A DNA stretch of 64,000 nucleotides from the NCBI GenBank assembly GCA_018389105.1, contig JACATO010000923.1, positions 248,001 to 312,000 of the forward strand, written 5' to 3'. This document shows positions 6,801 to 53,996 of this stretch, one piece after another. The notes beneath the pieces are model-generated. The model was not told the DNA's origin. It ran no database searches and was given only the letters and a program-made list of their open reading frames with translations. The translations under genes were made by a program, and so were the position numbers. The DNA comes from Nautilus pompilius (taxonomy: Eukaryota; Mollusca; Cephalopoda; Nautilida; Nautilidae). Within the stretch, counting starts at the first letter, position 1; every line of letters starts with the position of its first letter.

Positions 6801-8390
6801 CATTAGCACGTGTAATCTGTTCCTTTACGCAAGCCAAACGGCGATTATTATTTAGTTAGTATTAGTATATCCATAGTACCATATACACCTAGCACGTGTA
6901 ATCTGTTACCTTTACGCAAGCCAAACGGCGATTATTATTTAGTTAGTATTAGTATATACCATAGTACACCATTAGCACGTGTAATCTGTTACCTTTACGC
7001 AAACCAAACGGCGATTATTATTTAGTTAGTATTAGTATATCCATAGTACACCAACACATTAGCACGTGTAATCTGTTACCTTTACGCAACCCAAACGGCG
7101 ATTATTATTTAGTTAGTATTAGTATATCGTAGTACACCCTTAGCACGTGTAATCTGTTACCTTTACACAAACCAAACGGCGATTATTATTTAGTTAGTAT
7201 TATATATATCATAGTACCCACCATTAGCACGTGTAATCTGTTACCTTTACACAAACCAAACGGCGATTATTATTTAGTTTAGTATTATACCATAGTACAC
7301 ATTAGCACGTGTAATCTGTTCCTTCACACAAGCAAAACGGCGATTATTATTTAGTTAGTATTAGTATATCGTAGTACACCATTAGCACGTGTAATCTGTT
7401 ACCTTTACACAAACCAAACGGCGATTATTATTTAGTTAGTATTAGTATACCATAGTACACCATTAGCACGTGTAATCTGTTACCTTTACGCAAACCAAAC
7501 GGCGATTATTATTTAGTTAGTATTAGTATATCGTAGTACACCATTAGCACGTGTAATCTGTTACCTTCACACAAGCAAAACGGCGATTATTATTTAGTTA
7601 GTATTAGTATATCGTAGTACACCATTAGCACGTGTAATCTGTTACCTTTACACAAACCAAACGGCGATTATTATTTAGTTAGTATTAGTATACCATAGTA
7701 CACCATTAGCACGTGTAATCTGTTACCTTTACGCAAACCAAACGGCGATTATTATTTAGTTAGTATTAGTATATCGTAGTACACCATTAGCGACTGTAAT
7801 CTGTTTACCTTACACAAACCAAACGTTATATTTTAGTTAGTATTAGTATACCATAGTACACCATTAGCACGTGTAATCTGTTACCTTTACACAAACCAAA
7901 CGGCGATTATTATTTAGTTAGTATTAGTATACCATAGTACACCATTAGCACGTGTAATCTGTTACCTTTACACAAACCAAACGGCGGTTATTTTTAGTTA
8001 GTATTAGTATAACATAGTACACCATTAGCACGTGTAATCTTTACCTTCACAAAGCAAACGGCGATTATTATTTAGTTAGTTTAGTATATCGTAGTACACC
8101 ATTAGCACGTGTAATCTGTTACCTTTACACAAACCAAACGGCGATTATTATTTAGTTAGTATTAGTATATCATAGTACACCATTAGCACGTGTAATCTGT
8201 TACCTTTACGCAAGCCAAACGGTCCACCAAACACCCTGTCTTTTCCAATAATATTATCGGAAACATATTTTATAAGATCTTCTTTGCGTTCCCCCGTCGT
8301 CTGCTGCTCGCTGAACCCGTATTTTCCCCGCGGAAGAGGGCAGAACAGCAGCCTGTCCACAGGCGGCCTGCCGAAGCCCCCGGCCGCCAT
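865..8390 (-). CDS. Class-V aminotransferase-domain protein (cysteine desulfurase / isopenicillin-epimerase-like), 5' part; gene continues beyond left edge
   Basis: Exons I could join in phase, in gene order: 8204-8390 (62 codons +1), 6059-6089 (31 bp), 4921-5037, about 2942-3017, 1283-1348 and 865-930. All have AG/GT borders; the donor of the fourth is weak and uncertain. The start ATG at 8390 is chosen because its context is AACATGG and it is the first in-frame ATG of a GC-rich exon. Recognisable pieces: VFGGPFGLRK|V then LYLDYTASGR, SLSFIEDYIRKEVLPEYGN, HTTTSVTSLQTTMYRHEAR, DIIRNATNASEHDAVIFVG, SGTTAA, IVLVGPFEHHSNLLPW and NGEVDIGHLEEELE. These match the order seen in animal class-V PLP-dependent aminotransferase-domain proteins. 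The PLP-binding lysine should lie in exons off the window. About 14 residues expected between SGTTAA and IVLVGPFEHH were not found. Substrate unknown. Family assignment is from motif recall. Confidence 0.85.
2149..2830. repeat. GA-rich block followed by CT-rich block (imperfect long inverted repeat)
   Basis: From about 2149 to 2480 the plus strand is dominated by GAGAGA with interspersed GTGGGA. From about 2585 to 2830 it is dominated by CTCTCT with CTCGCGCTC. The two halves are roughly reverse complements around a mixed centre near 2500-2550 rich in GAGCTC and CTCGAG palindromes. Either strand could fold into a long imperfect hairpin. It lies in the intron immediately after the DIIRNATNAS exon of the aminotransferase gene. 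The open frames here on both strands are products of two-base periodicity and are not annotated as genes. Confidence 0.85.
3018..4920. other. Intron 3 of the aminotransferase gene, no other feature recognised
   Basis: Sequence between the exons ending at 3017 and starting at 4921. It holds two short open frames on the minus strand (3399-3656 and 4275-4667) that resemble no family I recognise and lack splice logic with the flanking exons. No repeat structure was seen. Confidence 0.5.
6168..8222 (-). repeat. 25-copy ~81-bp minisatellite derived from the exon 1 / intron 1 border of the aminotransferase gene
   Basis: About 25 tandem units, most 78-90 bp, fill nearly all of intron 1 (6090-8203). 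Read on the minus (gene) strand, each unit contains CCGTTTGGTTTGTGTAAAG followed by GTAACAG, then ATTACACGTGCTAATGG, and further on TACTAATACTAAC. The first part is a near copy of the last 19 nt of exon 1 (CCGTTTGGCTTGCGTAAAG) and its authentic splice donor. The array's right border therefore lies inside the coding exon at 8222/8223. 23 of 25 units keep the E-box CACGTG; the exceptions are near 6483 and 7790. Variation is mostly small indels around the GTAC core. Confidence 0.95.
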
Positions 8391-23905: not shown

Positions 23906-24831
23906 TCACAAACCCAACAGCATCATCTTGCTCACATAATCTAGCAGTCAAACCTCACACAGGTAATTAACAGGGTTTCAGCATCCTTCAGGTGAGATTC
24001 TACTGTTCAGCTCCGCTTTACTCCCCCCCCCCCAAAACTCCTCTCTCCCCTTCAGGGTAACGTTCACACTGAAACACAAACCCAGCAGCATCATCTTGCT
24101 CACATAATCTAGCAGTCAAACCTCACACAGGTAATTAACAGGGTTTCAGCATCCTTCAGGTGAGATTCTACTGTTCAGCTCCACTTTACTCCCCCCCCCC
24201 CCCAATCCTCCTCATCTCTGTAACGTTCACCACTGAAACACAAACCCAGCAGCATCATCTTGCTCACATAATCTAGCAGTCAAACCTCTCACAGGTAATT
24301 AACAGGGTTTCAGCATCCCTCAGGTGTGATTCTACTGTTCAGCTCCACTTTACTCCCCCCCTCCCAAACTCCTCTCTCCCCTTCAGGGTAACGTTCACCA
24401 CTGAAACACAAACCCAGCAGCATCATCTTGCTCACATAATCTAGCAGTCAAACCTCTCACAGGTAATTAACAGGGTTTCAGCATCCCTCAGGTGTGATTC
24501 TACTGTTCAGCTCCACTTTACTCCCCCCTCCCTCCCAAAACTCCTCTCTCCCCTTCAGGGTAACGTTCACCACTGAAACACAAACCCAGCAGCATCATCT
24601 TGCTCACATAATCTAGCAGTCAAACCTCTCACAGGTAATTAACAGGGTTTCAGCATCCTTCAGGTGTGATTCTACTGTTCAGCTCCACTTTACTTCCCCT
24701 CCCCCCCAAACTCCTCCTCTCTCCCCTTCAGGGTAACGTTCACCACTGAAACACAAACCCAGCAGCATCATCTTGCTCACATAATCTAGCAGTCAAACCT
24801 CACACAGGTAATTAATTAACAGGGTTTCAGG
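23906..24831 (+). repeat. Six-copy ~165-174 bp minisatellite
   Basis: Units start near 23906, 24080, 24245, 24410, 24583 and 24757 with AACCCARCAGCATCATCTTG and contain ATCTAGCAGTCAAACCT, a GGTAATTAACAGGGTTTCAG block, a poly-C run of variable length and CTTCAGGGTAACGTTCAC. The sixth copy breaks off at GGGTTTCAG and is joined directly to a GGCCG repeat. Length differences come mainly from the poly-C runs and small indels. Confidence 0.95.
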
Positions 24832-24873: not shown

Positions 24874-25380
24874 GGCAAAACGCGAAACGCGCACACACAC
24901 GCCCTGCCCACTTCCGCCCTACCCTCCTTTGTGTAAGCAGTACTGTACCCGCCCTACGTTAGAGCTTCTTCAGACCATCTCTCCAGAAATTCTCTTCTTC
25001 ATCTACTCCCCGACCGGCCGGCTGCACACGGCGTGTATGGTGGGCGAGAGCTCGCATTATCGGGTCTTACATTCCGCGGCTCATCCATCCCGGCGTCCGT
25101 CCGGCATCCATCCATGTCGGCAGCAGTCGGGTGTCTGCGACCTCCATGACCTCAGTCATGAAATCGTTGTTCGTTCGGAGGAGGAGACGGATCCACTCAG
25201 CAGCCGATTCCGTCCGTCCTCCATCTGCTGCACCAAACGCCGAGTTCCAGGCGGTCAGTCGTTCGGTCCACTCCCAGTTTTCTTAACACCCACCATTTTT
25301 TTGTTGTTGTTGTTGTTGTTGTCTCTATGACGTCAGCGGAGGGGGTTATAAATAGGGTAGAGTACATGTCACGTGGGTAA
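24874..25380. promoter_or_regulatory. CpG island with CRE, TATA box and E-box; probable MMAA promoter and possible opposite-facing promoter
   Basis: GC- and CpG-rich throughout. On the plus strand the right edge contains TGACGTCA (25328-25335), TATAAATA (25347-25354) and CACGTG (25370-25375), a compact core promoter predicting a start near 25380 in the plus direction. On the minus strand a donor-like GGAAT|GTAAGA (exon edge at 25071) could end a noncoding first exon of MMAA, whose coding exon has an upstream acceptor at 21180. The long open frame at 24854-25330 is typical of GC-rich sequence and has no recognisable domain. Confidence 0.55.
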
Positions 25381-30233: not shown

Positions 30234-33200
30234 TCAGCTGGCTTGACGCATCTTCTCTAAAATAGGGATGATCATGTCAAATCGGGGTCGTTTGCCAGGT
30301 TCTTCATTCATGCAGATTTTAAGGAGACGAACAATGTGCGAAGATATTCCAGGAGGAATCGTGATCCTTAGCCCTTCTAATGCAACCTAAAAAAAAAAAG
30401 ATTACGCAAACAATAGACTTGATTAGTGTGGGTTTATTTTTCTTTATAAAAGTTTTCCAAAAAAACCAAGGAAATTAATCTCTCCTCTCATCTGTCTCTG
30501 ATATATATGTATATAACAGCTCATTTATCTCCAAATATTTAAATTGTCTCCCTAATTTTATCCATTTTTTTTTGGAGGGAAGTCAAATTTACTGAAATGC
30601 TAATAAGAACCTCACCTTCATCCCGATTTCCATCGGAGACAGATCAGCAAAGGGCACCTCTCTTGTCTCCATCTCCCAAATAAGGATTGCATAACTCCAC
30701 ATGTCAGCAGCACGAACATTGATCTCTTCAGGCTTCTTCTGCAATGCTGTAAGTTAAGAGAGAGAGAGAGAGAAACTCTGGTGATGCCCTCTCTTGCTTG
30801 TTCTCTACTTTAGAATTACAAAACTCGGGTTTAAAATCCAGAACAGGGAAGATAATAAAAAAAAAATGGTTACTCAAAATTACTAATGGAACAACAGGTT
30901 CTATTTAACTGTGGTCAGCAGGGATAATCTTTGTTTTAATTGGTCACTTCCGTTTTATTTGATATTAACTACTGGCTTAAATTAGCATTTCTATTGAAAT
31001 TACTGCCACTCTTCTGCAAACTTTATTTTAAATATGGAACATCCGAGGTCAGGGTTCATAGCGAGTGGCTTGGAAACACGTACCTTCTGGAGCCATCCAT
31101 GCAGGGGAAAACAACTTTCCCTTTTCATGAAAGGAAAAACGATAATCAGCCATGTTAACTCTTGCTGTCAGATCTTCATCAATCTGAAGGAAAAAAAACA
31201 AAATAAAACAATTAGTAAAATGCCTTTTATTTAATTTACCACTGAATGCAGTTGCTAGAGAAACACTGACTTAATACTAGTGTTACAGATATAAATTCTA
31301 AAAGAAACCACAATCAGGCATCTACGTATTTTAAAAACTTGAGATGTAAAAGGCGAATAGATCTCTTCCTGTTTGGAAAGTATGAGTGATATGCAAATAA
31401 AATATTCAATGCCTTTAAAAAATTTCACTTCTTTTTCAAAAGAATTGTGGCAGCATTTAGTTAATACATATAGATTTAATATTTACCATTTTTTAAACTC
31501 TCTTGCAGTTCCTTGTAGATAGAAGACAAACAATGCCATTATAATACATACATTGGTCTCACATTTTACAAGATTCAAATTTTTTTTTAAAAAAATCCAC
31601 AGATTATGTTAAGCAGATTAGTAAAAACTACGTGTTTTTGCGTAAGAAATATCACCGAGATAAATACTGCAATGTAATAGTAGTTATCAGGGATTGTATT
31701 ACTGTACCACAGCTCCTTTAAATAGCATCTGTTGTCAAGTCAAAGTTGTAGCAATTTCATTCTAATCATGATCGAGGCTAACAATTAAGTCCATGCAACA
31801 GGATGCTGGTAAAAAATCAAAATCAAAAGTTGCCAAAACAGTGATTGTTTTAAAAGAACCTGGTACATCACTTAAAATAATAATAATGAACCACCCAAGA
31901 ATTTTTAAAAAAAAGACCTCTTGTTGTAATTCCTTTTGTTAACCTGTAAGGAAGAAATATAACTAATCTTCAATAAAAGTTGAGAGAGAGCATCTTAAAT
32001 CCATCAGCAATACAAAATTTCCAGCTAATTTTTAAGTGAAAGAAAAACAAACTATTTATTGACAAATGCATGAACCAGAAACATTTCTAATATGGAATTT
32101 TGAGAGAAGCAGTTTTGGTGGGTGACTAGAGAAGAGAGGCTATAGATCTCTCTCTTTTGGAAAATCTTCCTCAGCCAAGAATATAATGTAATAGGCAGTT
32201 ACACATATAAGATACATTTTCTATAAAACAAACAAGTCCTACTGGTGAGCATGAAGAGATTCATTCCCATGACAATGGATTTCAAAGACTGTCTGTCAAA
32301 TGGCAATCAGTTAGGGGGAAATTGACGTAAGAATTTCAGGTGTCCTTGCACTAATTTGATCAGCAATGAAACTGGTGGTTCTAAAACACTTACCTGTGGA
32401 ACAAAAAAGAACACCATTAATTTCAGACAATATTTGTGCTATGATGCAGATGAAGTTTCAGAAATGTTAAGTGTATCAGTAACAGTTCATATCCACTGGT
32501 AACTCATTCTGGTTATCCACACCATTTATGCTGATTAGATTTTACCCTTTGACAAGCAGTACAGGTGAAACAATGCCGAATTATTGTAAAGAAAAAATTT
32601 GTAGGCTCCATCTGGAGTTCAATAATTAGCGTTTATCCCCGCCATTTTCTTGATTTACTCAAAATAAGCAGGCAAAAGCCAAAGCAAAATTAGCTCAAAA
32701 GAAAGTTCACCTAAAAATGTCGGTAACATTCTACATACATACACCTTGAAAGTATTACTGATAACAGTTAAAAAGATAAAGAGAATGTTTTATCGAACCA
32801 AAAAAAAAAATACTGCAGTCTGAAATTTTATTTTACAAAAAGAAAATGAATTTTGAAAATTCTTTTAATCTATTGTTTCGTATCATGTATCTCAACCCGA
32901 TCAAAGATGAATTTTCTAACTCAATATAAATTTCTATGGTAATTATAGAAATCCACTTTTTGTTCTTTATATAGATTTAAAAAAAAAATATATAGTTTAC
33001 TTTTTTCCTAGTTACCCAAAGAAAATTATGACCATTCCTCATCCAACACCACTGCTTAAGATGTGGAAGTGATGGGAACTCATAATAGCTCTTCTGCTTC
33101 TCTGTTTAAAAAAGAAAGCAACATTATGCTACACCTAGCAAACGTGTAACCCCATAATGAAGAACACCCATTTGAAAGACAATAAATCACCATATGGCTC

Positions 33201-35964
33201 CCTAATCCCTGAGGTTTTACTATTCACATAATTTGAGCAAAAATAAGTTGTTCCGTTCGTTTGTTCTTGAGGTCAAGTCTTTTTTTTAAAAACTTTTTCT
33301 GAAACATACCTACTTTTGTTTCATTTTGCCGATATTTGACAAATCTCAATTTAGTTCTGAGTGGCAATCCAGTAATAAGGAGATCATCCAATGCTTATTC
33401 TCACTCAAATGGTTGGTCTATGCTGTGTCATTTCATTACCCTGGTAAACTATAATACCTAGATGTTTCTCTCTCCATACTGAACGGAAGTGTCTGTTATC
33501 AGCCTGTGCATGTCTCCATTTGTTCTGCTTTGTATATGGGCCAGAATTATAAACAGCCTTTCCTAATGAGCAAGTGTGCATACAAGATGTAAAACTGTTC
33601 TCAACTGCCAAACTCCTTAACTAGAAAACTGTAAAGCAGCAGCATAATTAGAATGTTTTATTGGTTAAATAACAAAATCCCCAAAATTACAAACTGTTTT
33701 GGTCAAGTCCACGGATTTACATAGCAGGCCGGGTTACACTCGCTTCTCTCCCCAGAAAATGACTAGCGTAACAAATCAACATCATTTCTGGGATGATGCA
33801 GCTGCCTCATTGCGCTTTGGCAAATGAATGGAATCTAAAACAAGTTTCTGTCTACTGATGACTAAGGAATCCACTCCACAATGTAATGTTGCAGTAGCAA
33901 CTCCTGTCCTAAACACAGGTGCAATTCTCTATGGCTTTTCACTTGTAAGTATTATCTTAGATATAATGTCTGGATACAGATCTCATGGATTTTTTTCCAC
34001 CAGCCATTGTTTAGCCAAGTTCTACAGTACATCACACTTTCCAAGGTTGAATTGTGGGAATGTCTGAGGGAGGGAGAGATGACGTCAGTAGTGCACACAG
34101 ACAGAGAGGGAGAGATGACGTCAGTAGTGCACACAGACAGAGAGGGAGAGATGACGTCAGTAGTGCACACAGACAGAGAGGGAGAGATGACGTCAGTAGT
34201 GCACACAGACAGAGAGGAGAGATGACGTCAGTAGTGCACACAGACAGAGAGGGAGAGATGACGTCAGTAGTGCACACAGACAGAGAGGGAGAGATGACGT
34301 CAGTAGTGCACACAGACAGAGAGGGAGAGATGACGTCAGTAGTGCACACAGACAGAGAGGGAGAGATGACGTCAGTAGTGCACACAGACAGAGAGGGAGA
34401 GATGACGTCAGTAGTGCCACAGACAGAGAGGGAGAGAGAGATGACGTCAGTAGTGCACACAGACAGAGAGGGAGAGATGACGTCAGTAGTGCACACAGAC
34501 AGAGAGGGAGAGATGACGTCAGTAGTGCACACAGACAGAGAGGGAGAGATGACGTCAGTAGTGCACACAGACAGAGAGGAGGGAGAGATGACGTCAGTAG
34601 TGCACACAGACAGAGACAGGAGAGAGGGAGAGATGACGTCAGTAGTGCACACAGACAGAGAGAGGGAGAGATGACGTCAGTAGTACACACAGACAGAGAT
34701 GGAGAGATGACGTCAGTAGTACACACAGACAGAGAGGGAGAGATGACGTCAGTAGTACACACAGACAGAGAGGGAGAGATGACGTCAGTAGTACACACAG
34801 ACAGAGAGAGAGAGGGAGAGATGACGTCAGTAGTACACACAGACAGAGGAGAGAGAGGGAGAGATGACGTCAGTAGTACACACAGACAGAGAGAGAGAGA
34901 GGAGAGATGACGTCAGTAGTACACACAGACAGAGAGAGAGAGAGGGAGAGATGACGTCAGTAGTACCACACAGACAGAGAGAGAGGAGGAGAGAGATGAC
35001 GTCAGTAGTACACACAGACAGAGAGAGAGAGGGAGAGATGACGTCAGTAGTACACACAGACAGAGAGAGAGAGGGAGAGATGACGTCAGTAGTACACACA
35101 GACAGAGAGAGAGGGAGAGATGACGTCAGTAGTACACACAGACAGAGAGAGAGAGGAGAGATGACGTCAGTAGTACACACACACAGAGAGAGAGGGAGAG
35201 ATGACGTCAGTAGTACACACAGACAGAGAGAGAGAGGGAGAGATGACGTCAGTAGTACACACAGACAGAGAGAGGGGAGAGATGACGTCAGTAGTACACA
35301 CAGACAGAGAGAGAGAGAGGGAGAGATGACGTCAGTAGTACACACAGACAGAGAGAGAGGAGAGATGACGTCAGTAGTACACACAGACAGAGAGAGAGGG
35401 AGAGATGACGTCAGTAGTACACACAGACCGAGAGAGAGAGAGAGAAGAGAGGGAGAGATGACGTCAGTAGTACACACAGACAGAGAGAGAGAGAGGGGAG
35501 AGATGACGTCAGTAGTACACACAGACAGAGAGAGAGAGAGGAGAGATGACGTCAGTAGTACACACAGACAGAGAGAGAGAGAGGGAGAGATGACGTCAGT
35601 AGTACACACAGACAGGAGAGGAGAGAGAGAGGGGGAGATGACGTCAGTAGTACACACAGACAGAGAGAGAGAGAGGAGGGAGATGACGTCAGTAGTACAC
35701 ACAGACAGAGAGAGAGAGAGGGAGAGATGACGTCAGTAGTACACACAGACAGAGAGAGAGAGGGAGAGATGACGTCAGTAGTACACACAGACAGAGAGAG
35801 AGAGGGAGAGATGACGTCAGTAGTACACACAGACAGAGAGAGAGAGGGAGAGATGACGTCAGTAGTACACACAGACAGAGAGAGAGAGGGAGAGATGACG
35901 TCAGTAGTACACACAGACAGAGAGGAGAGAGAGCGAGAGATGACGTCAGTGTATACACACAGAC

Positions 35965-35995
<31 letters not shown>

Positions 35996-38900
35996 GAGAG
36001 AGATGATTCCAACTAAACACTAACATTGTAAGGTTCTATTTAAACCAAAAAAAAAAAAAAATCAGATTAGAAAAGTTCTCTTAGCACACTGGTTCTTTCC
36101 TATTTAATAAAAAAAGGAACACTAAATTAATCTGTCAAATAATTTTTAAAAAGTTGTCTTAATAAATCTACACAAGGAAGCAGGAACGTTCCCAAAACAC
36201 ACACACATATAGGTAGTATAGGCTGTAGACAGCGAACTACTTCTCTAAATAGCTGAAAGAAAATACCTCGGTGCTCGGATTTCTGGAAAACAAACATTCC
36301 TATCTGCAGTACAAAATCTAGAAATTTTTAAGAAAAAATAAATACTGATAATTTATAACCATCAAGATCTACTCTATTTCTATTTGTTTTAAATTTTACA
36401 TTCTAAGGTTTTGAAAGTTACCTGTCAGCAAAGTCTTTTATTAATACTGAGCATCAAAACTAAAATTGTTCATATTTTGACTTATTACTTCGGCTGACAA
36501 AAAAATTCTAAGTTTATAACAGCACTTAGTCTAAAGTAGAAAAAAAAATCACATTATGAACAGATTTCCTTTTACATGATTTAATGTTTTCAAGTGGAAC
36601 TGTAGCGCAAGAATATAATTTGCACATTACCATATAGCTTTATTTGACTCCTATAATGAATTTGTTGATTGGAATTGCCTTTCGACCATAGAAAACAAAT
36701 AAGTCACCATAGTTAATAAGAAATTATGCTAGATCATAGCAAAGCTAATAACCATAATTTAGTCATTTGCTGCAACATGCTATGGTAAAAAATGGCAGCC
36801 ATCTTCATATGTTATCTAGATGTATTAACTGGTTATAATCAAGTTTCAATTTTGGTGTCATTGGTAAAAAGTTGCTTTCTTGTTTTTAAATTATTCCAAG
36901 GTTATGATGTGCAAATTACATTAAAGTACTAGGAGTCCCATTAAGTGGATTACATTTTTATCTAACAAAATACAGAATAGAAGATATGCACTAGATGAGG
37001 AAGAGGTCAATGTGCGAAGAAGGATCAAGTAAACAAGACAGACAGACATTTCTGAAAGAGAAAGATAAAAATTTCTTCTTCAAGTTTAACATCTTTAAAA
37101 ACCACTCCACATCACGTCAGTCAGTTTGCAATATTAAGCCAAAGATTATTGCATAAAAACAAACTTTTTTTAGAATAAAAACTTCATAAAACAAATGTAC
37201 CATGCACGACGAAAACCAAAATCATTAAAACAAAAACCATGCTTTAGAAGAAAGTGAGTAACAAAATTCAAAAGATAATAAACAACTTGGCAAAAGTAAC
37301 CTGTAGGCAAATCTGACAGCAGCCATGCAGTAAATGTCTTTGACCAATCATAGCCTGCACTAAAGTTTAGTGTATTATGAAAAACTAAAGCCAAGACACA
37401 ATGGCAAATTTAGCAAAATTATTCTAACAACGTAACAAAACCATACAATATCCATTACCATTACTGTTTTACTGCTGTTATTATTTAGTGATTTTAATGT
37501 TTTAACTAAACAAGAATCTTCAAATACACTCGTTTTCACATTACTAGGCTAATTAACACCTTTTCCCTATTCATACGAAATGCCATGACTGGTCCTTTCT
37601 ACAAACAGTTGGCTGAACAACTCTGACTTTGCTTGCGGCATGAGAATGTACGGCATTCTGCCATTTACAAGAAAGGGCAACAACACTAAATCAATCATTA
37701 ATGGGCAATCTCCTCACCATCATCATTTCAGGCAGACAAAAAGTTAACAGCAATCAATAAAGATTCTGAAGAAATGCTGTAAAAATTTTTAAAAAATAAA
37801 TTACAATATACTTTCTGATGATTAAATGATAAATATAAATCACCAAATTGTATATTATTTACTTATATTTGATGAGTTTGATAAAAAATTTTACATGCAC
37901 ATAAAACTAACAACAGACGAGAGCACAAAGCGGCAGCATTGTAAGGTGTGAAACGGTCTCTTATTGAATGGGAGCCACCAAATGACAAACAGGAACGCAA
38001 TTTCAGCAGCAGCTTCCACAGTTTTATCATCTCCTCTGAGATATTTACACATAGGTACGTGCTGAGTGTAATGTAAAAATAATTTAAAGCAGTTGTTCTC
38101 TCAGAGTAACCTCAAACCACAAAGAATGTTACACGAGAAAACAAAGATCAGCTCAGAGGCAGTTATTAGCCAGTCATGGGGAGGATAATCGACCTGCTTT
38201 TCAGATTGCCGCAATGTTTAAACACAAAAACGGGAGATAAAAACTCTTGAATTATAAATGATACATACTGTACTGTACTGTACAGATATATTTTGAGGGA
38301 AAAATCTCAAAGAAAGAGTCTGTTGATGTTTATTAAATCTGGCATAAGCAAAATAAAGCTAAAGTATTAAAAGTTTTATTCAAGCATAGATCTAAATCTA
38401 GATATATAGCTAAAAAGTACAGAACTTGATATCATTTCAAAACGTCTGATTGTCGAAATTCTAAATTACGACAAGAATTTTCAAAAAAAAAATCTTCCTT
38501 CTGACGCAAAACTTCCAAGAAAATTCTAACAGAGTTTTGTAGGAAATCTTATTTATTTATTTATAATTTGCAAAAAAAAATATTTGTGAAAGTATCTCAT
38601 GGTCTTTATTAGACTTTTTCTGACAGACAGACAGACAAAATGCAGGGAAGGAGATGTTGCATGCTGGAGCACCTGCACACAGGTGATGTATTATTTATAT
38701 GCCCCACATTAACTCTAAACAAGCCAGGTTTTCGGCACACAGAGATACAATATACCTATCAGGTCATAGAAAGAAAAAAACTTTCAGCTGACAACAAACG
38801 TGAATAGCTGAGTTCTGTGGCAGAAAAACTGTATCTAATGCAAAAGAGAATTTCTTCCTAAACATTCACTTCACAAAGCAGATAAAATTTATCTAGAAAA

Positions 38901-41900
38901 TTTTATTTTCTGGTTGAAATTTATTTGAGTAGTCTCCCTTGATTTAATACAGCCACTGGGAGCCAAGAGTCACAAATATGCTAAAAACAAAACATGGCAG
39001 AACGCAGAACTGTAGGTGGTGGTGGTGGGGTCTCGATGCAGGTACAATGAGCTTAAATGGTCAGGGTTACACGTCAAAGGCACAAAAAGGAAATATTCCT
39101 CTTAGATTTACTTCGCTTTCTTTCACCATCTCTAGGTGCAAAGTTTTAGCAATCTTCTATAAACATCTAAAATATATAACTTTCTTATCTAATAACAGGT
39201 ATCTGGTTTTTGCAATGGAAATGTGGCTAATGAAATTATGGAAAGGTGATAATTTAGTATCCTGGTACAACTAGATTAATTAATTAATAAAATAGAATAA
39301 AAGTAAAAAATTTTTTTAATTGCAGATATAGCTGCAGTATATCCTAATTTGAGCTAAACCAAAGAACTACTGTATTCATTTGGCATCTATTAAGAAAAAA
39401 AGCACGAAATTATATTCATTCATTTGCATTGTATTTTTAAATCAGATTAACTAAAAGTCTGAATTCCATCTCTTGGAATCTATACTAATTTTATATAGAT
39501 ACCCTGGCGTACAGATTTCAAACTATCCCATACCCGAGATGACAAATGACCAACACACCGTGCAATAAAATTACTGAGAAAACACTAAGAGTCATCAAGG
39601 TGCTAAATTATATTTCAAGATATGGTTTATCAAGAAATATGCCTGAAAATGGATGTATGGGGAATTAAAAAATTAATGAACTGCTGCAAATGTTTACAGT
39701 TAACATCCACACTTTACTCCATTCATGTTACGGCTTTTCTTCTTTTCCATAACTAAAAAAAAAAACGTTATCATATTTAAAGAAAGACTATCAAGAGGTG
39801 CTACCAAAACACCACGTCCTATTCTAATTGACAAAAGAAGAACACCTTCTACCTTTCTTTTAGACTATAAGTATGGTAGTATTAGTAGCATCACTATCTA
39901 GCTAGCCTGCTCTACGATCATCAGTTGTCTACACCATGATACACAAGGGGCCAGCAACATCAAGTCCACACACTGGGGTGGCAGCAAGTTTGAACTACTG
40001 AGGGAGAGTTAGCAGTGAAATGTTTGTTGTTAGTGGTGCAACTTGCTTCACAGCAGTCGGCCACAAGACATATTACCCCATCAATTGATGCATCGTTTGC
40101 AGAGTATTTAGGATCATCAATGTTTATTTTAGCCAGGTCTTCGTCAATCTAAAACAGAACACAGCAATCAAAAAGATCACCCTGAAAACAGACTAAAAGA
40201 CATTATGGTCATCATTATTCATGGTTGCCCCATTGTTTTTCTTTTTCTTTTTTTTTCAAATATTTAAGCAAATAAAAAAAAATTTGTCAGAAGTATTAAT
40301 CACATACTGGCTCATCAATAACCAAATAAATATTGTAACAAATTAAAGGCCAAGATTTCTTTAAAATTCCACATTTTTTTTCTTGTGCTTACTGGCCAGA
40401 ATCGACTTTACAGTCAATCAGACATCTAAAGACTCTAGTACTGCCTTCCTTAATGTTACATTTATAAAGAAAGGTTTTTGTTGTTGTTTTAAGTATTCAT
40501 TCTTAAAGTAGCATTCAGCGCCTTCTTGTGCAGGGAGTACTTACTGTATGACGACGACTTACTGACAAAAATTCTTAAATGAGTATGTTGATCAAACTAC
40601 ACGCAGTTAATTATGCTGTGTACATCTGCACTGTTTTGGTTCAAAATGGCAAATCTGCTTTAAGGTTGGAGCCAACCAATGCACCCTCCCTTGAAATCAA
40701 CCTTTAGTAAACCTTTTATTCCAATACATGAAGCAGAACTCGGCTCAAACACACTTAAAATACTTATGAAATTTGTCTCAAGAAATTTAAACATGAAAGA
40801 TCATCATTAAAATTCCAAACACCTGAATTATGACTGGATGTTTATCTTTGTTTACAGATCTTGAACTTCAACCTTTCGTCATTCACCTGGAGCCATTTAG
40901 AAATAAGTGAGCTTGTAAGATGTTGTCTCGTAGTGATGGCTGATGAAAACTGAAATCTCAAATTAAAAGTATTCAAAAGGTTTTAATTTTTGTGTGATAA
41001 GAAAGAGTGATAAACAAGATTTCTTTACCATCACGTGTTTGCTGGTGAGTGTCAGGTTTGGTACCAATGGTTCCATCGAGTGCAGAAACTCCATACCGCG
41101 AGCAATATCAAGTGCGAATCTTAGTGCCTGGTTCTGATCAACAACGATGCCTGCAAGTTAAAGAACAGATAGATAAAGGGAAATGTCAAGTAGAGAATAG
41201 AGAAAAATAAAATCTGCATGCTGCAAGTTCACACTACAGAGATCCATTCGTGTTCAAAATAAAATTTTTTCCATTGTTACAACAACAAAATGAAGGACAT
41301 TTGTTTAGCTGTTGAAAGTAGCTGCTTAAAACAGGTTGTTCTTTAGCTATTTTTCTATGGACTGTCAGAGTTTAAGCAATGAATAGTGCACCTGTTTCGC
41401 CATGGAGTACATTGAACAGAGATCCATAGGGCATAAACTGGCTGATCACTATTAGGCTCGGAGGTTGGTTACAACAAGCAAGAACTGGCAAAATGTTCGG
41501 ATGATTAAATATCCTGAAACAGAGAAAGTGAAATTAAAGTAAATCGTTCCAGTCTTTCCTGAAGAGAAAAAAAAGAGAACTACCAAACAACGTATGGAAA
41601 ATAAATTAGACTCTTTTTTTTAAAAAAAAAATAGAACAGTAATACTTCTGAATATTTTTTAAATCCCACAACAGTTCACATCTGAGTAAGAAACTATTAT
41701 GTAGAGAAAGCCTGCGCTATAATTCGATTCAGACTCGAGTATCAATTTCTGTAGTTATCCCACCTTTTACATACCAAACCAATCACCAAAAACAAAAAAG
41801 GGTGACAGAAAAAAGAGAATGGCAGAATGCAAAACATGTGTAACTTCAATCACAGACTTATTATTTCAAGAAACAAATAGAATTATTGCCGATTCATTTA

Positions 41901-44900
41901 CCTTAATCGTGGAAATTCTTCCTGGAAATCCCTAGACATCCTAATGGTGCAATCCCGCATATTCAACACTTTTGCGACAATTTCATTGTCTTGCCACATA
42001 CCTCTCCATACCTGGGGATCGACAAAGATACAGAAATTAAATTACTATTTGTTTTATTTTAAGTAACTAGCAAACTTTCCCTAAACAAAAAATAAAAAAT
42101 AAGAAGTTGTGTAAGTCTGTAAACTGCAGTGGGGATTGGAAACCCCTTCTTGACAATTAATTGTTTGAAATATTAAAGTTACTTAGACCACCAAAAAAAG
42201 AAACAAGACTGCCTGTCCAGTGATAGGGAATGCGAAAGAAAACAATACACGGTTCTTTCAATGTATAATCAAAGCCCTTGTAGTCTGGAGGTGTAATGAC
42301 CCTTCAACAGCCCTGCATACAGACTCTTACCCTGAAAAGTCATTACAGTAAGAATGCACAACAACTGCTCATTGGCAGGAAGATGTCTCAAGTTCAAGTA
42401 TAGTCGAAAACCTCAACTATATTCCTTGGGAGCCTGTGTCACCACCAACTTAAACTCGCATTCTCCAAACGAAGTTAAATTTTGAAAAAAGAAAAAAAAA
42501 GACACCTTGGAATAATGCACAGTACTTGTTGCTCTGCCACCAAACAATCATCTCTTCTGGATGGCCTGTGAAACATTTGGGCTAGAGGGATGCACAAAGT
42601 GAATATATGCATCTTTGTTCTACTGAAATATTTCTTAGTCACTATCATAGATTTATGAGACATACTTTGCTGGTAGCAACTTTAAATCTTGTATCCAAAT
42701 CAGCGAAATGGAAACATTTGCTTGAAATTATACGTTGTCCTTTGATACCTGCTGACTTGTATGATTTTCATGTATTGGGATGAAATGCTAATTTTCTTGT
42801 CTTCCGGTTACTGCATTCTTTCCACATATCCTGGACATTCCTTCACTTGGAGAATTATAACAGCAGCAGCAGCTCTTTACATTGCTCTCACTGCAACCTT
42901 CAAACATACTCTTGTTTTTCGAATTGCCGGACTTTGAAACTTTTTCCGTGTATGTAAAGCAAACTTTTCTTTACATGGCCCATATTGGATGATGATTTTA
43001 TTCATCAGAAATGTTCTAATCATCTGCTAACATAAAGAAATCTTAGTCTGTTGTCTTGACAAATTGAAATCTAGGACTGGCTTAAATGCTTTCACATCTA
43101 TATTCAAAAGAAAAGAGAATATTCCTTGCATTAAATATCACTGGCTGTTAGGATTTGATCCTCTACAGCTCGATGAAAGCTTGCACAGGCTGCCAAGTGT
43201 TTTACTGTGCCTCCATCACGAGGGAATTTGCAAATGACTGGTATTAGGGAAGAAAAAAAATTTTCCCTTCTGCTGTAATGCTTCCAAAGTAATGTAATCC
43301 TTGTAATTTGTAACACACAGTTAAGTAACCAGTGAAGTAGTGGATGTGTTTGATTTCCAAAAGACTTCTCTTTAAGCATGTACCTTCTATAGAAAGGCAT
43401 ACACTGTTGGTGATTCATGTTTCAGGAAATCACTTGACACAGATACTTATGCTTTCAATTGATCCATCTTTAGTTTTGCGATACACCACAAATGAATTCA
43501 CATTTGCTTGGCTGTTCTCCCAGTGAAAACTCCACAAAACCCATCAACAGTTACTCTAGTCTGGTGGCAGCCACTGGCTCTGTTTTTTGATGAAATAGAT
43601 ATATTTTCTTTTTACTGCTGTTGCTGTGTTTTTTTGTCTATAAAGCTTTACTACTTTGCATGATACATAGTGCAAGCATATGTGAATGAATTATATAGTC
43701 ACCCAACCTTGGTAGGCTAAAGTGACTAATGATTTCAAAACGTGTGCATGAATGCAAATAGTAGCATACAATGTTGGGTGGTTTTTATCCCTCGGAATCA
43801 AGGCGGTCAAACAAGTTTGCCGCGATTCTCACACCTCAGGACATGAACATCTCATACATGTATTCAGTGCCACAAAGCCATTTTCAATCCTGAAGTGGGT
43901 TTTTGGTCACATTTAGCAAGGGAATCTTCACAGAACTCTGTAGATGATAATGGTGATATTCTACATTCTGGTTATATTTCATATTGAGATAACAGAAAGT
44001 CAGCTGCCATGCTTCACCAGTGCTTGACTTTGAGCTCCAAATATGGCTTCATGCACCGCATGACATGATCAAATGTCCACTTTGGATTTAATTAGGGACA
44101 AAAATAAAAATCAAAGACTCAGGAATTATACAGAACTGAGCAACCCAAATTCAAAAATTTTAATTTTAATTTTAAACAACCAAAAAAAGAACATCTTAAT
44201 ATACCCAACTTTCAGATCCGTAATCATATAAGTGAACTGTAATTAAAACATTACGTGTGTTTTTTTGGGATTAAATTATCCCAATGTACTCATACATCAT
44301 ATCTCCTTCTAAAGTCCAGTTTCTTCCAGTACACAAGTAAAAAGTCAGCAAAGATTTCCTTAAATTTACAGCTGTCAAATTTGTTTTAGCACACCCAGCA
44401 TCTCCTGTATCAATTTGTATATTAACTAACTAGAATGTTTAATAATCAGACTATAAAAATATTTTAGTCTTTATTAATTGTTTTATATTGGAAAACAGTA
44501 GTCATCAAGTGCGATGTTTTCCTTGAATTCTCTGACTCAGTGAATCTCAGGCTGGCTCAGCCACTTCCAACTGAAGACTCATTTATCCACCCAACATTAT
44601 TAAAAAAAAAAAAAACAGATTTTCTTGAATTGGTCTACCATATTGTTGATGTTGTGTTTGTTTTTTTCTCTCACACATCTGAAAATGAAGAGTTCTAGTC
44701 AGAATTTCCATAGATTAAAGTCTGAGGACACCAAATACTCCTGCGCTTACTGTCGTCATTTCCAATGTCATGCAGCTGGGTCACAGCCTCTGAGAGGCCA
44801 GGGTCACTACAACAATAGGGTTCCTTCTGACAGCTTCATCAGCAAAGAAAGAATAACTGTTACATAATCAAAAATGAGTGAAAATAACTCACTTTGCAAA

Positions 44901-47900
44901 AAGTTGCATATGGAGGGACTCCCCATATAATTACTTGGCATGGAAACAAGGATGCTAGACTTCTATTTCTGTAGACAAGGAAATCTGAGGACTTTTCATA
45001 ACTGTGGGAACCCTGTTGATCATTTCTGACAAGATTTTTTAAATCTACATAAATAGTTATCCTAGGAATTCGAGTTTCATGATAACAGCTGTCTTGTGCT
45101 TGCAGCTGCTGATCAATGAACTGTGGATTTTGTCACGTGTAAAATGAAGCATTTTTTAAACCCAAGTATCTTATTGTTGAGGTCCTGTACCTTTGGAACT
45201 GTGAGAGCTGGGGGGCTTCAGCTTTACAAACCTTCCTTTGGGAGCCCAATGATCCATCAGTAGAAGTTTCATCAAAATCTGAGAATGAAGTGGGGGCACT
45301 TTCTCAAAATTTGATGACCTGATGTGGAGTAGCCCAAGAGCAAACTTTATAGGCTCAAAGAAAAAGATGATATCTATACTTTTTTCTTTTTGAAGAAGAC
45401 TGAATCATGAAATTCATCAAAAAATATTTGAAAAACAGCAGCAGCAATAGAAAAATGTTAAAAGTGAGAGGAGAGTTCTCGAGTCTAACCTGTCCTGAGT
45501 GAGTGGATGCTACAGCCCCACTCAGACTGAGCTGAGAGATGTCCACTCCAGTGTGTCTGGATAAAGTCGCATCACCTGAAATACATGGAACAAATACAAT
45601 TTTTTTTTCCCTTAAAGCTACATTTTAAAAACAACAAGTTATGTAAATAAACAAAATAAAATCTGACAACAAACAGTGTATACAGTTGTTGCACAAATTG
45701 ATTTTGTTGCTGAACTTCATTAAACAATACTAGAAATTATGCAAAAATTATTCATTCTGATATAAGATTGGTTTTTTGAAGAAGACTAGGCTGACAGCCA
45801 TTTATACATAAATAAAGAATCTAAGAATAATAAAAATGGCTTTTTTTTAGTTACCATGGTGACAGTAATTTGTTTGTTTCATTACATTTAAATTAATTTT
45901 AATTTTTTTTTTTCTATTTTCACATCAGATTCATTATTTTCAAAAGAAAACCTTACGTACGACTCCGCGTCTTGTATCCTAGCCAGCTTCGATCTTTAAA
46001 TGGAACTTTTTTAAAGTCCTGTCCCAGAGCTGCAGCCCGATCTGAAAATAATCGTATTCACCCATAGAGTAAATATCACAGGCCTCCGACACAGAATGTG
46101 AAGGTTTGCAGTGACATGCAGTGTGTTTATTACTAACTGAACTATTCTGTCGAATAAACCAGTAAGGCCATGGGTAACAAATGCACAAGCTGAAGATTAG
46201 TCATTATACTAATATCTGCGAGGTTAAGAATTAGCACACTGCCCTTTTCTTCTTCTTAAATCAATCAATGAGCAAGTAGACAACTTCAATTTATTAACAG
46301 CTTTAACAAGCTGTTCTTTATAAAATATATATTTTGAAAATTATCATTAATAATTTTTTTTTTTAATTCCACAATTAGCTACTTAATAATTATGGTGAGT
46401 ATTCGATCTCTAATAATAATAATATATAAATGTTTATATTAGTTACATCTCATGGACACTTTTAAAAAATCTTTTTTATTTTCTACACAGAATGTACCCC
46501 CAGTGCAAAAGGAAACAATATGGATAATTAGTAAGATGAATAAATTCAAAAAAGTGAAAACTATTGCAATTTCCATAAAACATGTGCACAGATAAATCCA
46601 ATTATAATTTATAAACACACCTCTTTTTTTCTGAGCTATGAACTACCAGCCAATAATATGTCGGAGTACCTACCTTTCAGAATGATGGCCAACTGTGGAT
46701 TAGCTCTGTCTAGCGCTGTCTCATCGTATTTGTTTGCAATGCAGACCAAAGCACCGTTATGCACCAAATCCTGTGATGGATAAATTATTAGAATTCTGCT
46801 CATCTTATTTGTGTTTTGGTACATCCAAGGTTTCCAAAATTATACAACAACAAAATGAAATGTCTACGTCTTCTATAGCCTGACATCATCAATTCTCATT
46901 TAAAAATGAAGATAATCTGCCATGAATTTCATTAGTTTGGGTTTTTCTTACCAGCCTTATCAGTAGTAACTAATGAACTTTGTTCATTGCTATGATCAGG
47001 CTTTAGTCCCAAAAGAGAATTTTTTGGTGTGTATGTTAATTTGCAGCAGACTTTCCTAACAGTTAACAGGGGCACTCACTATCCCCAAACTGGGGATACT
47101 TATGCAAACATCAACAAAAAGTAGATTCAGTTTAATCACTAATACTGATAAGATCAGGCGAGCTAGCCTCCTATTCTCTGTAAACAATGCCACCAATAAT
47201 TGTCCCATCTTTTTTTAGATTTACAAAAAAAAAATTGAATTAAAGTATCTTCCTGTCAGGATGGCAACAAATTAATGAGAAACTTTGTTTAATTTTCCGT
47301 TGACTTACTAAATTCTCAATTGTGTGGTTTATTCTTCACTAAAACAGGTATTTCTTTTTTTAAGAGAGTAAATAGGGGGCACTACACACCATCTTGTCTT
47401 CGATGGTAGGCATACAATACTAAAAACCTAAATATGAGGGTAATTGCTCACCTCTGTAATATGATCGTATCCCCAGAAGCAGGCATAATGCAAGGGTGTA
47501 TTACCATGTTCATTGACAGCATTGATGTTGGCTTTGTTCTGCAGCAACTACAACATAATTTTAAAAAAAAAATAAAAAATAGTGCAATATTTTTCTCTGA
47601 GATAAGTTAATTAGCATTTTCTTCTAAGAAAAAGAAATACAAACTGTAAATGCCACCTTCCATTTTGAAATCAAAACAAGAATCCAGGCTCTTTATATCC
47701 TAATTTAAATAATTAGAAAATTTACATGATCCACATTCAAATAAAAATAAACTTCTAAATTTAAAATAAAAAGTTTTCTTTACGATTTTTTTCAAAGTGA
47801 ATTCAACTTGTCAATAAATTTCAAAGAAAAATCTGAATAGACCACCGCCGGATTATACGTGATAACCATCGTCTACTATACATTTAGTATCACATAAAAG

Positions 47901-48773
47901 TAGAAAAAAAGGTCTGTTTCAATAATCAGAAACGTTTCTAGCCAAATTTTTGTCTGCCCCCCCCTTTCATATTTTCCTTTCGTTAGGACAAAGGTCTACT
48001 GATTGTTCACAAATGACTAGATTACAGCAGTTAAAATAACATTCTAAAGTTTCACTTCATGAAAAACTTGTTACAGATTTAGGTGATGGGAAAGATAAAA
48101 CTTGCGCTTGCTACATCACATTATGGCATTCATCATAAAGAGCTACCATACAAAGAATAATTTAGAACAATTTTTGATTAATTGAAGTACTTTGCATACA
48201 TTATTATTAATAGTTTATCAGTTCCAAAGTGTTTTTTAATATGTACAAATGTTTATATAATAGGTAAATTGCCTCTGATATCCCTTGTGGAATAATGCCA
48301 ATGAGAACATGGGTATTAGACAGGGATCGGAAACTAGAATTAGTTTGAGCAGTTCCCACCACCTTGGTAAAAACCAATTAGAAGCCTACACTTCAATGAT
48401 ATTTCCATCTTCACTATGTAGTTGTAAAGACGACAACTGTTCTGGCGCGCAATGATGTTAGCTTGCAGTAGAGATTTCTACTGTTTGAATAGCACAAGTG
48501 GCTGATCGGCTTTCTTAGACTACTCTTCTGTTCTAAAATCCCACCTCTTGTCAAATCTCATCCTTATCTCTCACCCCATTCATAGCAGCAAATCTGCACC
48601 ATTTTACCTTCAACACAATGTCCCTGTGGCCGTGGGCAGCAGCCAGATGCAGTGCTGTGTCATCACCCATGTTGGTGGCATTAATGCGAGCACCCCGCAT
48701 TATCAGCATTTCTACGATGTTCGTCCGACCCTCTCTGGCAGCCCAGTGCAACAAGCTAAAACGATGGTCATCG
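30234..48773 (-). CDS. ILK: ILK: integrin-linked (pseudo)kinase, all but the first ~30 residues
   Basis: Eleven exons in gene order: 48608-48773, 47452-47547, 46674-46770, 45961-46041, 45490-45575, 41902-42011, 41392-41513, 41029-41150, 31084-31183, 30616-30746, 30234-30386. Every border is AG/GT and all phases match, giving 420 residues plus stop. The N-terminal ankyrin repeats begin [18 protein letters not shown] and include [10 protein letters not shown]-type turns, [14 protein letters not shown] and [14 protein letters not shown] linker follows ([16 protein letters not shown]), then the kinase-like domain with [45 protein letters not shown] and a C-terminus ending MRQAS. As in other ILKs the catalytic sites are degenerate: [10 protein letters not shown] replaces HRDLxxxN and MADYRF replaces DFG, while the ATP-site lysine (AKVL) and APE remain. 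ILK scaffolds PINCH and parvin at integrin adhesions. The first exon was not found up to 64000, so intron 1 exceeds 15 kb or its exon is lost from the assembly. Confidence 0.97.
34072..36006. repeat. 47-copy minisatellite with a perfect CRE octamer in every unit
   Basis: Tandem units of mostly 36-44 bp with consensus GAGAGATGACGTCAGTAG, then TRCACACAGACAG and a variable GA run. I counted 47 occurrences of TGACGTCA from 34080 to 35948. The first 17 units carry GTGCACAC and the later ones GTACACAC; later units are longer because their GA runs are expanded. Long open frames on both strands (about 200-290 codons) are a consequence of the repeat having no stop codon in several frames and are not genes. 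Located in the large ILK intron. Confidence 0.97.
40077..40148 (-). CDS. ILK: Candidate duplicated / alternative ILK exon (24 codons, in frame)
   Basis: A good acceptor (CTGTGTTCTGTTTTAG) is followed by [19 protein letters not shown] and ASIDG, then a donor-like GGG|GTAATA. Its start closely parallels the constitutive exon at 31084-31183 ([16 protein letters not shown]). It is 72 bp and both flanking ILK borders are phase 0, so it could be inserted as a cassette without shifting frame. Used instead as a last exon, it would read through 27 further residues to a stop and cut off the kinase C-lobe. The splice-site pair and homology are seen; usage is inference. Confidence 0.5.
42012..45489. other. 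ILK intron, no recognised feature
   Basis: 3.5-kb intron between the exons encoding THSGQ and VWRGMWQ. Several short open frames on both strands (43131-43418, 43344-43526, 44625-44867) are protein-like but unidentified. The stretch may be an old transposon too decayed for me to name. Confidence 0.4.
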
Positions 48774-51382: not shown

Positions 51383-53566
51383 GTAAGAGGGCACCCAGAA
51401 TTTTGGTATAAAGCAGTCACCAGTTACATATTCCTCCCTAAACAAACAAATTATTTGATGGACAACATGAAATAAACAGCCTGGGATCAGTCATTTACCT
51501 AACCCTGGGTAAATGAGTCGGAATGCATCAGTAAGCCCTGGTCAGATATGTAAATCATGGTTGAAATTAATTTCTGTAGATGCTCAAATTATCATAGCAA
51601 GAATTTGCATGATTTAATATGATTAAAATTTTATAAGATTTGTTAATGTGAACTTAAAGATTGGTTAATTGGAACTCTTATATACTATTTCATACAATAA
51701 ATACACTTAAGCTTTATTATACAAGAGAATATACTAAACATATATCTGTATCATTTTAATGTCAACATCAATGCTGCAGTTTCTTTTTCTCATTTTATAT
51801 TTGATTTACAGAAGTCTTGAGTCAAAGTTACATGTTTATTTCTTAATCTGTGGAATTAGTTTTAGCTATCACATTTTACTTTACATGCAGTAAGTCTGAT
51901 TTTTAATGGTATTTTGTTTTTTATACTTTACATCCTGCACTAGTAATGTCCCTTCCTCACCTCTTCAGACAGAAAAAGCTAAAAAAAAAAACACTTTATA
52001 AAATTACACACACACAAACACAGACATGGCACAAGTAACTCAAGGTTTGAAGAAACTGCATGCTCATCTGGAACCATATATAGACAGCACTTTATCAAAT
52101 CTCTGTATACAAATATAGGGTGGCTCGATGGCCCTGAGAGACTACTGAAAAGCAGAGTGCAAATCCCAGTCTAGACTGGTTTAATTTGGTAGGAGCTTTC
52201 TGCACCCTAGTCCCCACTAGTCTTCACAATGTGGAAGAAACGTTGTTGGAAGTGTCACATTCTAACACGAAGGATGATGACATTGCCATGTATTTGTAAT
52301 AATGTCCATGTCCTTTGAGGAAAATGAATTCCGCTAGGAAAAAATGCAGTTACAAAACATCTTTAAAATAAATTTGTAAAACGCTCAACTTTTTGCTACA
52401 GCAGTGTAGTGAAATCCAATACAGCAGAAACTCAGAATGCTAAAGTTCTTCAGTATTCTATTTCCGTTAGCTGCAAATGCAGAATCTGCCATTAAATAAA
52501 TTATAAAATTTTTAGAAAAAAATAAAAATCAATTTGCTCAGTAAATAGGTATCTCAGTTTGTTTTTTGTTCTTTAATTAAATTTTGTTCAATTTTTCTGT
52601 CCACCGAAAGACTGGAAATTATTTCTTTTTAAAATTTCTTTAGCTAGTGAGTACTAGTTATGCAAACATTATTAACTCAGATGACAAACTCCAGATGTCT
52701 TGCAATTACTAACAGATGACAGACATTAGTATCACAATTCAGCTGTGTGCCATACCATTTAATTAACTAAACCTCTAGAGTGGGTCTGCTTATCCTATCA
52801 AGTTATATGCCAGAACTTATGCAACAAAGAGAGATGATCAAAGTTTCTCAAACCCTGTAGCATCACAGAAAAATAGACATTTTCCTGCAAATAGGTGGAA
52901 TTCTTATTATTGGTTAAATTAGTATTCATTTTCTTTGGCCTTGGAAACTGCTACAGAAGTTGTAGTTACTTTGTCAGTTGCTAGGCAGAAGGTGCCAAGG
53001 TCAAAGTGCACACCATGAGGAATCCTTGTGATTACATGAGGGCTGGAAATGATTAATAATAATTAATTCCACAGAAATTGATAAATCTTAAAAAAAACAA
53101 GAAAATATTTGTTGTTTGCAGTTTTATCCTAAGGGAGGTTTTCAAAACCCATATAAATTAAGAATTACCAAGATTAAAGTATAAACTAAGTCCCAAGAAG
53201 TCTTTTCTGATGCACAATATGGCAAATGGTTGGTAAACAAAAAAAACTCATCTAAGTTGAGTCTGGGGCAAGTCCAGGCTTCCCTCCAAATCTAAACTAT
53301 ATCCTCATGATGGTAACTGGGAGAGGCCGCCAAAACAGCTACTACTGACCTTCTGGTAAATAACGTATGGCCAAAAACTTTACACTAACCAGAAGAAAAG
53401 TAAAACAACACTATCTTATGGAGATATAGTCATAAATGTGATCTAACCCTAAAGTTTGGAGAAAATACTAATTGACAGAGTAATAATGGAATGTCTGTAG
53501 GAAAAAAAAAACAATGAAAAATACCAAAAACACCATAACTTATAAAAATCCAGATCAATAGATTAC
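51383..53566. other. Gene-free AT-rich stretch with a possible SINE
   Basis: No host exon recognised. At about 52121-52290 (plus) a tRNA-like head, GGGTGGCTCGATGGCC with a B-box-like GTGCAAATCCC about 40 nt later, suggests a tRNA-derived SINE. The tail is not similar to the SINE pair at 59-60 kb. Low confidence. Confidence 0.3.
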
Positions 53567-53996
53567 TGTTATTTTCCTGTTTGCATAATATATTTATATT
53601 TATTTTGAAAGATGTGGCACCAGCCACATAAATAGCTCAAATCAATCACAATAATTCTTCAATCCAGCAAGACCTTAAACATGAGTTGACATGACTCCAA
53701 ACTCTCATCTGTTATTTTCCTGTTTGCATAAAATATTTATATTCATTTTGAAAGATGCAGCACCAGCCACATAAATAGCTCAAATCAATCACAATAATTC
53801 TTCAATCCAGCAAGAACCTTAAACATGAGTTGACATGACTCCAAACTCTCATCTGTTATTTTCCTGTTTGCATAATATATTTATATTCATTTTGAAAGAT
53901 GCGGCACCAGCCACATAAATAGCTCAAATCAATCACAATAATTCTTCGATCCAGCAAGACCTTAAACATGAGTTGACATGACTCCAAACTCTCATC
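53567..53996 (+). repeat. Three-copy ~143-bp tandem repeat
   Basis: Units at about 53567-53709, 53710-53853 and 53854-53996 start TGTTATTTTCCTGTTTGCAT and include CACCAGCCACATAAATAGC and AACATGAGTTGACATGACTC. Only a few substitutions and single-base indels separate them. Confidence 0.95.

Follow-up and report, generated by a model that had tools for sequence, protein, structure and literature searches.

Does the perfect cAMP-response element (CRE) in every unit of a minisatellite reflect the binding of CREB/ATF proteins, or does it reflect the way in which the array arose? The question is posed by an array in an intron of the ILK gene of Nautilus pompilius, lying in a window of 64,000 nucleotides (the whole stretch of DNA that was analysed). 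The preliminary description of this DNA had read the intact octamer beside a varying spacer as a possible sign of selection or binding. We consider it probable that the ILK array is instead one local representative of a minisatellite family dispersed throughout the genome, and this family is a more interesting object than the single ILK array.

The array is 1.9 kb in length and its unit has the consensus TGACGTCAGTAGTRCACACAGACAGAGA(GA)nGGGAGAGA, which merges into a (GA)n tail. The perfect CRE octamer TGACGTCA was recovered in 47 of 47 units, in agreement with the preliminary count; the octamers span 34080–35948, and the spacing between successive octamers defines 46 units with lengths inside the range of about 10–100 bp that is usual for minisatellites. 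TRF assigns a period of 36 and a score of 1661 to the row 34070–35441. Shuffles of the window average 0.52 octamers (largest value 4), so the density had rightly been described as far above chance. An A stands before the octamer in all 47 units, giving ATGACGTCA, which includes the heptamer ATGACGT. Within the array the GA runs alone vary much, and their variation had been noted. The GTRCAC block had also been called variable, which is misleading: the R site is G in units 1–16 and A in units 17–46, with unit 47 altered, and this single boundary points to an old change carried by duplication rather than to free variation. A four-unit stretch folds better than its shuffles (z = −4.8 as DNA and −5.8 as RNA of the other strand), as is expected of tandem palindromes. 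Outside the array the window holds two more copies of TGACGTCA, at 25328 and 50114. After the lone octamer at 25328–25335 come GCGGAGGGGG, a TATA-like TTATAAATA and, further downstream, CACGTG, an arrangement that looks like an ordinary CRE-plus-TATA promoter.

The placement within an ILK intron was confirmed by tblastn, which matched 11 minus-strand segments (Table 1). With human ILK as the query, the alignments at 41181–41017 and 46776–46612 cross a stop codon, so that the exon edges are approximate. The array sits between the segments at 41181–41017 and 31189–31082. The gene is depleted in CpG, with an observed/expected ratio (o/e) of 0.38, and the CpG density is 9.9 per kb in the intron compared with 25 in the array. 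Despite this depletion, the octamer CpG is kept in all 47 units, as the preliminary description had stated.

Table 1. Coordinates of the array, its blocks and the surrounding ILK gene in the window.
Feature	Position	Strand	Remarks
ILK gene	30243..48772	-	11 matched segments, tblastn with human ILK query
ILK segments 1–6	48772-48605, 47547-47452, 46776-46612, 46054-45959, 45573-45487, 42014-41901	-	tblastn
ILK segments 7–11	41518-41393, 41181-41017, 31189-31082, 30747-30613, 30386-30243	-	tblastn
ILK intron with array	31190..41016	-	9.8 kb, boundaries approximate; CpG o/e 0.37 without array
Minisatellite array	34072..36006	+	47 octamers; 46 units of 35–53 bp plus altered last unit
G-type block	34080..34671	+	Units 1–16 (GTAGTGC); exactly 36 bp in 11/16; most homogeneous portion
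A-type block	34672..35940	+	Units 17–46 (GTAGTAC); GA-run length variable
Last unit	35941..36006	+	Intact octamer, altered spacer (GTGTATACACAC), then GA tract

The preliminary description had proposed a search for the unit elsewhere in the genome, and this search shows repeats of the TGACGTCA core to be widely dispersed. In the host assembly (727.6 Mb in 2,558 contigs) the octamer occurs 93,914 times, compared with 19,528 for a reversed-letter control without CpG, and pairs within 30 bp number 28,614, compared with 81 for the control. In the collections viral_contigs and genome_contigs, exact patterns of the unit gave no match; 19 viral stretches matched a loose pattern of three octamers and were treated as background. 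From the octamer and pair counts we estimate that the loci of the family number in the thousands. Arrays on contig C1, at background loci and on other contigs share the core TGACGTCA-GTAC-(AG)n, read on the GA-rich strand, and occupy otherwise unrelated flanks. When up to 700 bp was compared on each side of 19 arrays, GA runs and leftover repeat units were all that the flanks had in common. Runs of four or more GA repeats come within 60 nt of the array on both sides in 13 of the 19, on one side in five and on neither in one. Degenerate octamers are also expanded inside arrays. The spacers are locus-specific, as established by exact copy for the A-type spacer of the ILK array alone and by inspection for the other arrays. 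At position 9530 of locus L024, a GA tract with a single octamer and ATACAGTACAGACAGAG may be a seed of the family that has not expanded.

Conservation of the octamer relative to its neighbours was examined in the array and in the family. No large excess was seen in the alignment of the array or in two genome-wide spacer tests. With each unit aligned to the consensus, the octamer has no substitutions and the neighbouring 16 bp have one (the R site apart); the rest of the first 26 bp shows one substitution and a few small indels, altogether in six of the 47 units. Changes are so few that preservation of the octamer relative to its neighbour cannot be demonstrated from the array. In the first genome-wide test two exact 15-bp spacers were fixed and the eight bases between them were left free. 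All 94 matches are octamer-like (at most two mismatches), with 50 perfect, 36 carrying one change and eight carrying two; counted by locus, a perfect copy is present in 39 of 68. The converse test, in which the octamers were fixed and the 15 bases between them were free, gave 4,110 places with pairs at exactly 15-bp spacing (0 for the control). Among the matches listed (50 distinct places on contigs C1–C17), 11 spacers are exactly GTACAGAGAGAGATA and 48 lie within four mismatches of it. Among these listed matches the octamer has a per-site identity of 0.93, the adjoining GTACA 0.92 and the 15 spacer sites together 0.88. Such small differences mean little, since each test conditions on a different part of the sequence and the listed places come from C1–C17 only. 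A sample of 21 arrays from outside the window contains 291 octamer-like sites, of which 209 are perfect. The octamer mutates about as freely as the adjoining GTACA across the family. The preliminary description had itself named an octamer that mutates like its spacer as evidence against its reading, and this is what we observe, the arrays compared being paralogs and not orthologs. The idea that the octamer is specially conserved was therefore dropped, the neighbours being nearly equal in the array and in the family. Of the earlier interpretation, the CREs, their density, the ILK intron and the intact CpGs stand, but the step from intactness to selection does not.

The ILK array appears to have grown where it is. 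An exact search of the genome for the A-type spacer GTAGTACACACAGACAGAGA gave 25 matches, every one of them inside the array, and the left flank (33300–34071) matches itself alone and is single-copy. An A-type spacer without an exact copy elsewhere, together with a single-copy left flank, argues for growth in place, and the array looks to have been made uniform recently. In the account that we favour, the short module TGACGTCAGTAC, which is set in (GA)n tracts at many otherwise unrelated sites, would expand locally by replication slippage and unequal exchange. Arrays would then homogenise with their own spacers, carrying whatever octamer they began with. The CRE is the core of the family, and its perfection in the ILK array would stem from recent homogenisation. 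Judged from the sequence, selection on CREB/ATF binding is probably unnecessary to explain the perfect CRE; binding itself is chemically plausible. Jeffreys-type dispersed hypervariable minisatellites likewise comprise many loci with a short unit and a common core, and the present arrays resemble them in this and in being homogenised with their own spacers. The present arrays differ in that their core joins GTAC to the palindromic CRE octamer and lies in GA tracts, and in that the family is known from one assembly. Slippage alone does not explain the dispersal of one core to so many loci. The favoured account also has to accommodate 47 intact CpGs, which exceed simple neutrality in a CpG-depleted gene unless the expansion is young, an octamer identity slightly above that of the whole spacer among the matches listed, and the apparent avoidance of CpG-poor sequence described below.

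The CpG setting of the arrays was compared with that of background loci taken at fixed positions on 20 regularly spaced contigs, of which 16 existed (150,451 bases). The CpG o/e of these is below 0.6 in six and between 0.81 and 1.16 in ten, with transitions within single contigs, a pattern that would fit an animal with mosaic methylation. CpG-rich sequence hosts 40 of the 42 arrays examined, and the two below 0.6 are the ILK array (flank 0.31) and L057 (0.53). The 42 arrays include 14 loci of contig C1, the weak cluster L020 (one of four octamers perfect) and 20 of the 68 loci on the spacer list, which were chosen as ten with a CpG-decayed and ten with a perfect octamer. A CpG o/e below 0.6 was found for one of these 20 spacer-list loci (on 20 contigs) and for six of the 16 background loci (P = 0.03); with the addition of eight octamer-pair loci with readable flanks (a ninth had none) the figure is one in 28 (P = 0.006). 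The family apparently shuns CpG-poor sequence, a bias that suggests a connection of some kind with unmethylated DNA. In L057 the octamer is changed at its CpG in 23 of 31 copies, compared with none of 47 in the ILK array. All 23 changes are the one variant TGACATCA and perhaps represent one change spread by duplication; with two arrays, the contrast is a hint and not a rule. Over the 42 arrays the flank CpG o/e does not correlate with the fraction of CpG-decayed octamers (rho = 0.02, P = 0.91), and an explanation of CpG decay by the CpG state of the flank was dropped.

Three other readings were weighed against membership of a dispersed family. It seems unlikely that CREB/ATF proteins occupy the array and make it an intronic enhancer of ILK or a sink, with selection or binding keeping the octamer intact and unmethylated. 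The full octamer in all 47 units, with its CpGs intact in a CpG-depleted gene, is what this reading expects, and the CpG changes in the CpG-poor L057 would agree with it if they were more than one duplicated change. A CRE in the LTRs of IAP elements is active through CREB1 when unmethylated, and the binding of CREB1 to TGACGTCA is methylation-sensitive (PMC9729108), so that arrays in unmethylated DNA could be bound. The IAP elements are likewise repeat DNA bearing TGACGTCA, but their site lies in the 5′ LTR of a retrotransposon, unlike that of the ILK minisatellite (PMC9729108). Against a functional cluster, the octamer is hardly better kept than the adjoining sequence in array or family, many like arrays occur elsewhere in the genome, and CpG decay is unrelated to the flank. 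Very many dispersed copies could also be taken to mean that the array was carried around by a mobile element, as its internal or tail repeat; we regard this as very improbable and disfavour it, since the left flank is single-copy and no shared element was found beside the 19 arrays within the 700 bp or less inspected per side.

It likewise seems unlikely that the dispersal itself is driven by recombination. On this reading germline ATF/CREB proteins might bind the CRE and promote breaks, and repair through GA-tract homology might copy and expand the module, so that the core would spread because it is a CRE. In S. pombe, M26 and CRE-like hotspots with the heptamer ATGACGT are bound by Atf1–Pcr1 (PMC2677671). 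The ILK array has this heptamer at 47 of 47 sites; M26 is a yeast hotspot with measured recombination, whereas the array is known here from sequence alone. Because TGACGTCA with its preceding A contains the M26 heptamer, recombination-driven spread is worth testing. The reading gains from dispersal without a shared host element, and from the location of 40 of 42 arrays in CpG-rich sequence, where the CRE could be bound. Local copying would also be expected to leave regional modules, and a GGAGA-type module (mostly GGAGAGATA) is present at ten of 14 loci on C1, at none of 24 elsewhere (Fisher test run with 23 of them, P = 3e-6) and at none of nine further loci, although it was spotted post hoc, the sampling differed between loci and contig C950 (locus L016) carries related CAGGAGAGA/TAGGAGAGA modules. 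General regional similarity of spacers over 39 arrays is not significant, 1040 of 5000 permutations reaching the observed mean, and was dropped as a candidate. Degenerate octamers, moreover, expand inside arrays as well. The boldest form of this reading, likewise improbable, is a self-spreading minisatellite in which germline ATF/CREB proteins act on unmethylated TGACGTCA to cause breaks and GA-directed repair copies and expands the module at very many loci; equally doubtful is its corollary, that the CRE would be the agent of its own spread and the ILK array a young outpost in a methylated-type gene. Three arrays lie close together in about 5 kb at locus L016 (C950:20001–30000), and by inspection their modules (CAGGAGAGA/TAGGAGAGA and ATACAGAGACAGAGA) are related in part.

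One lesson of the ILK array is that little can be concluded about function when a motif is perfect in all units of a single array. This genome, in which perfect CREs exceed the reversed-letter control by tens of thousands, with many in dispersed arrays, also offers a natural test of whether repeats that contain transcription-factor sites sequester those factors, evade methylation or promote recombination. A literature search found no work on a TGACGTCA-core minisatellite family or its unit sequences among the matches listed.

Elsewhere in the window, an 81-bp tandem repeat of 25 copies occupies 6171–8222, and the 2-kb bin 6001–8000 has a CpG o/e of 1.40 in an otherwise mostly CpG-poor window. 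An open reading frame at 13036–13641 matches Pfam Raftlin (E = 5.7e-08, 32.3 bits with a cut-off of 29.4). Further tandem repeats lie at 23907–24815 (periods 168 and 332) and 53566–53996 (period 143).
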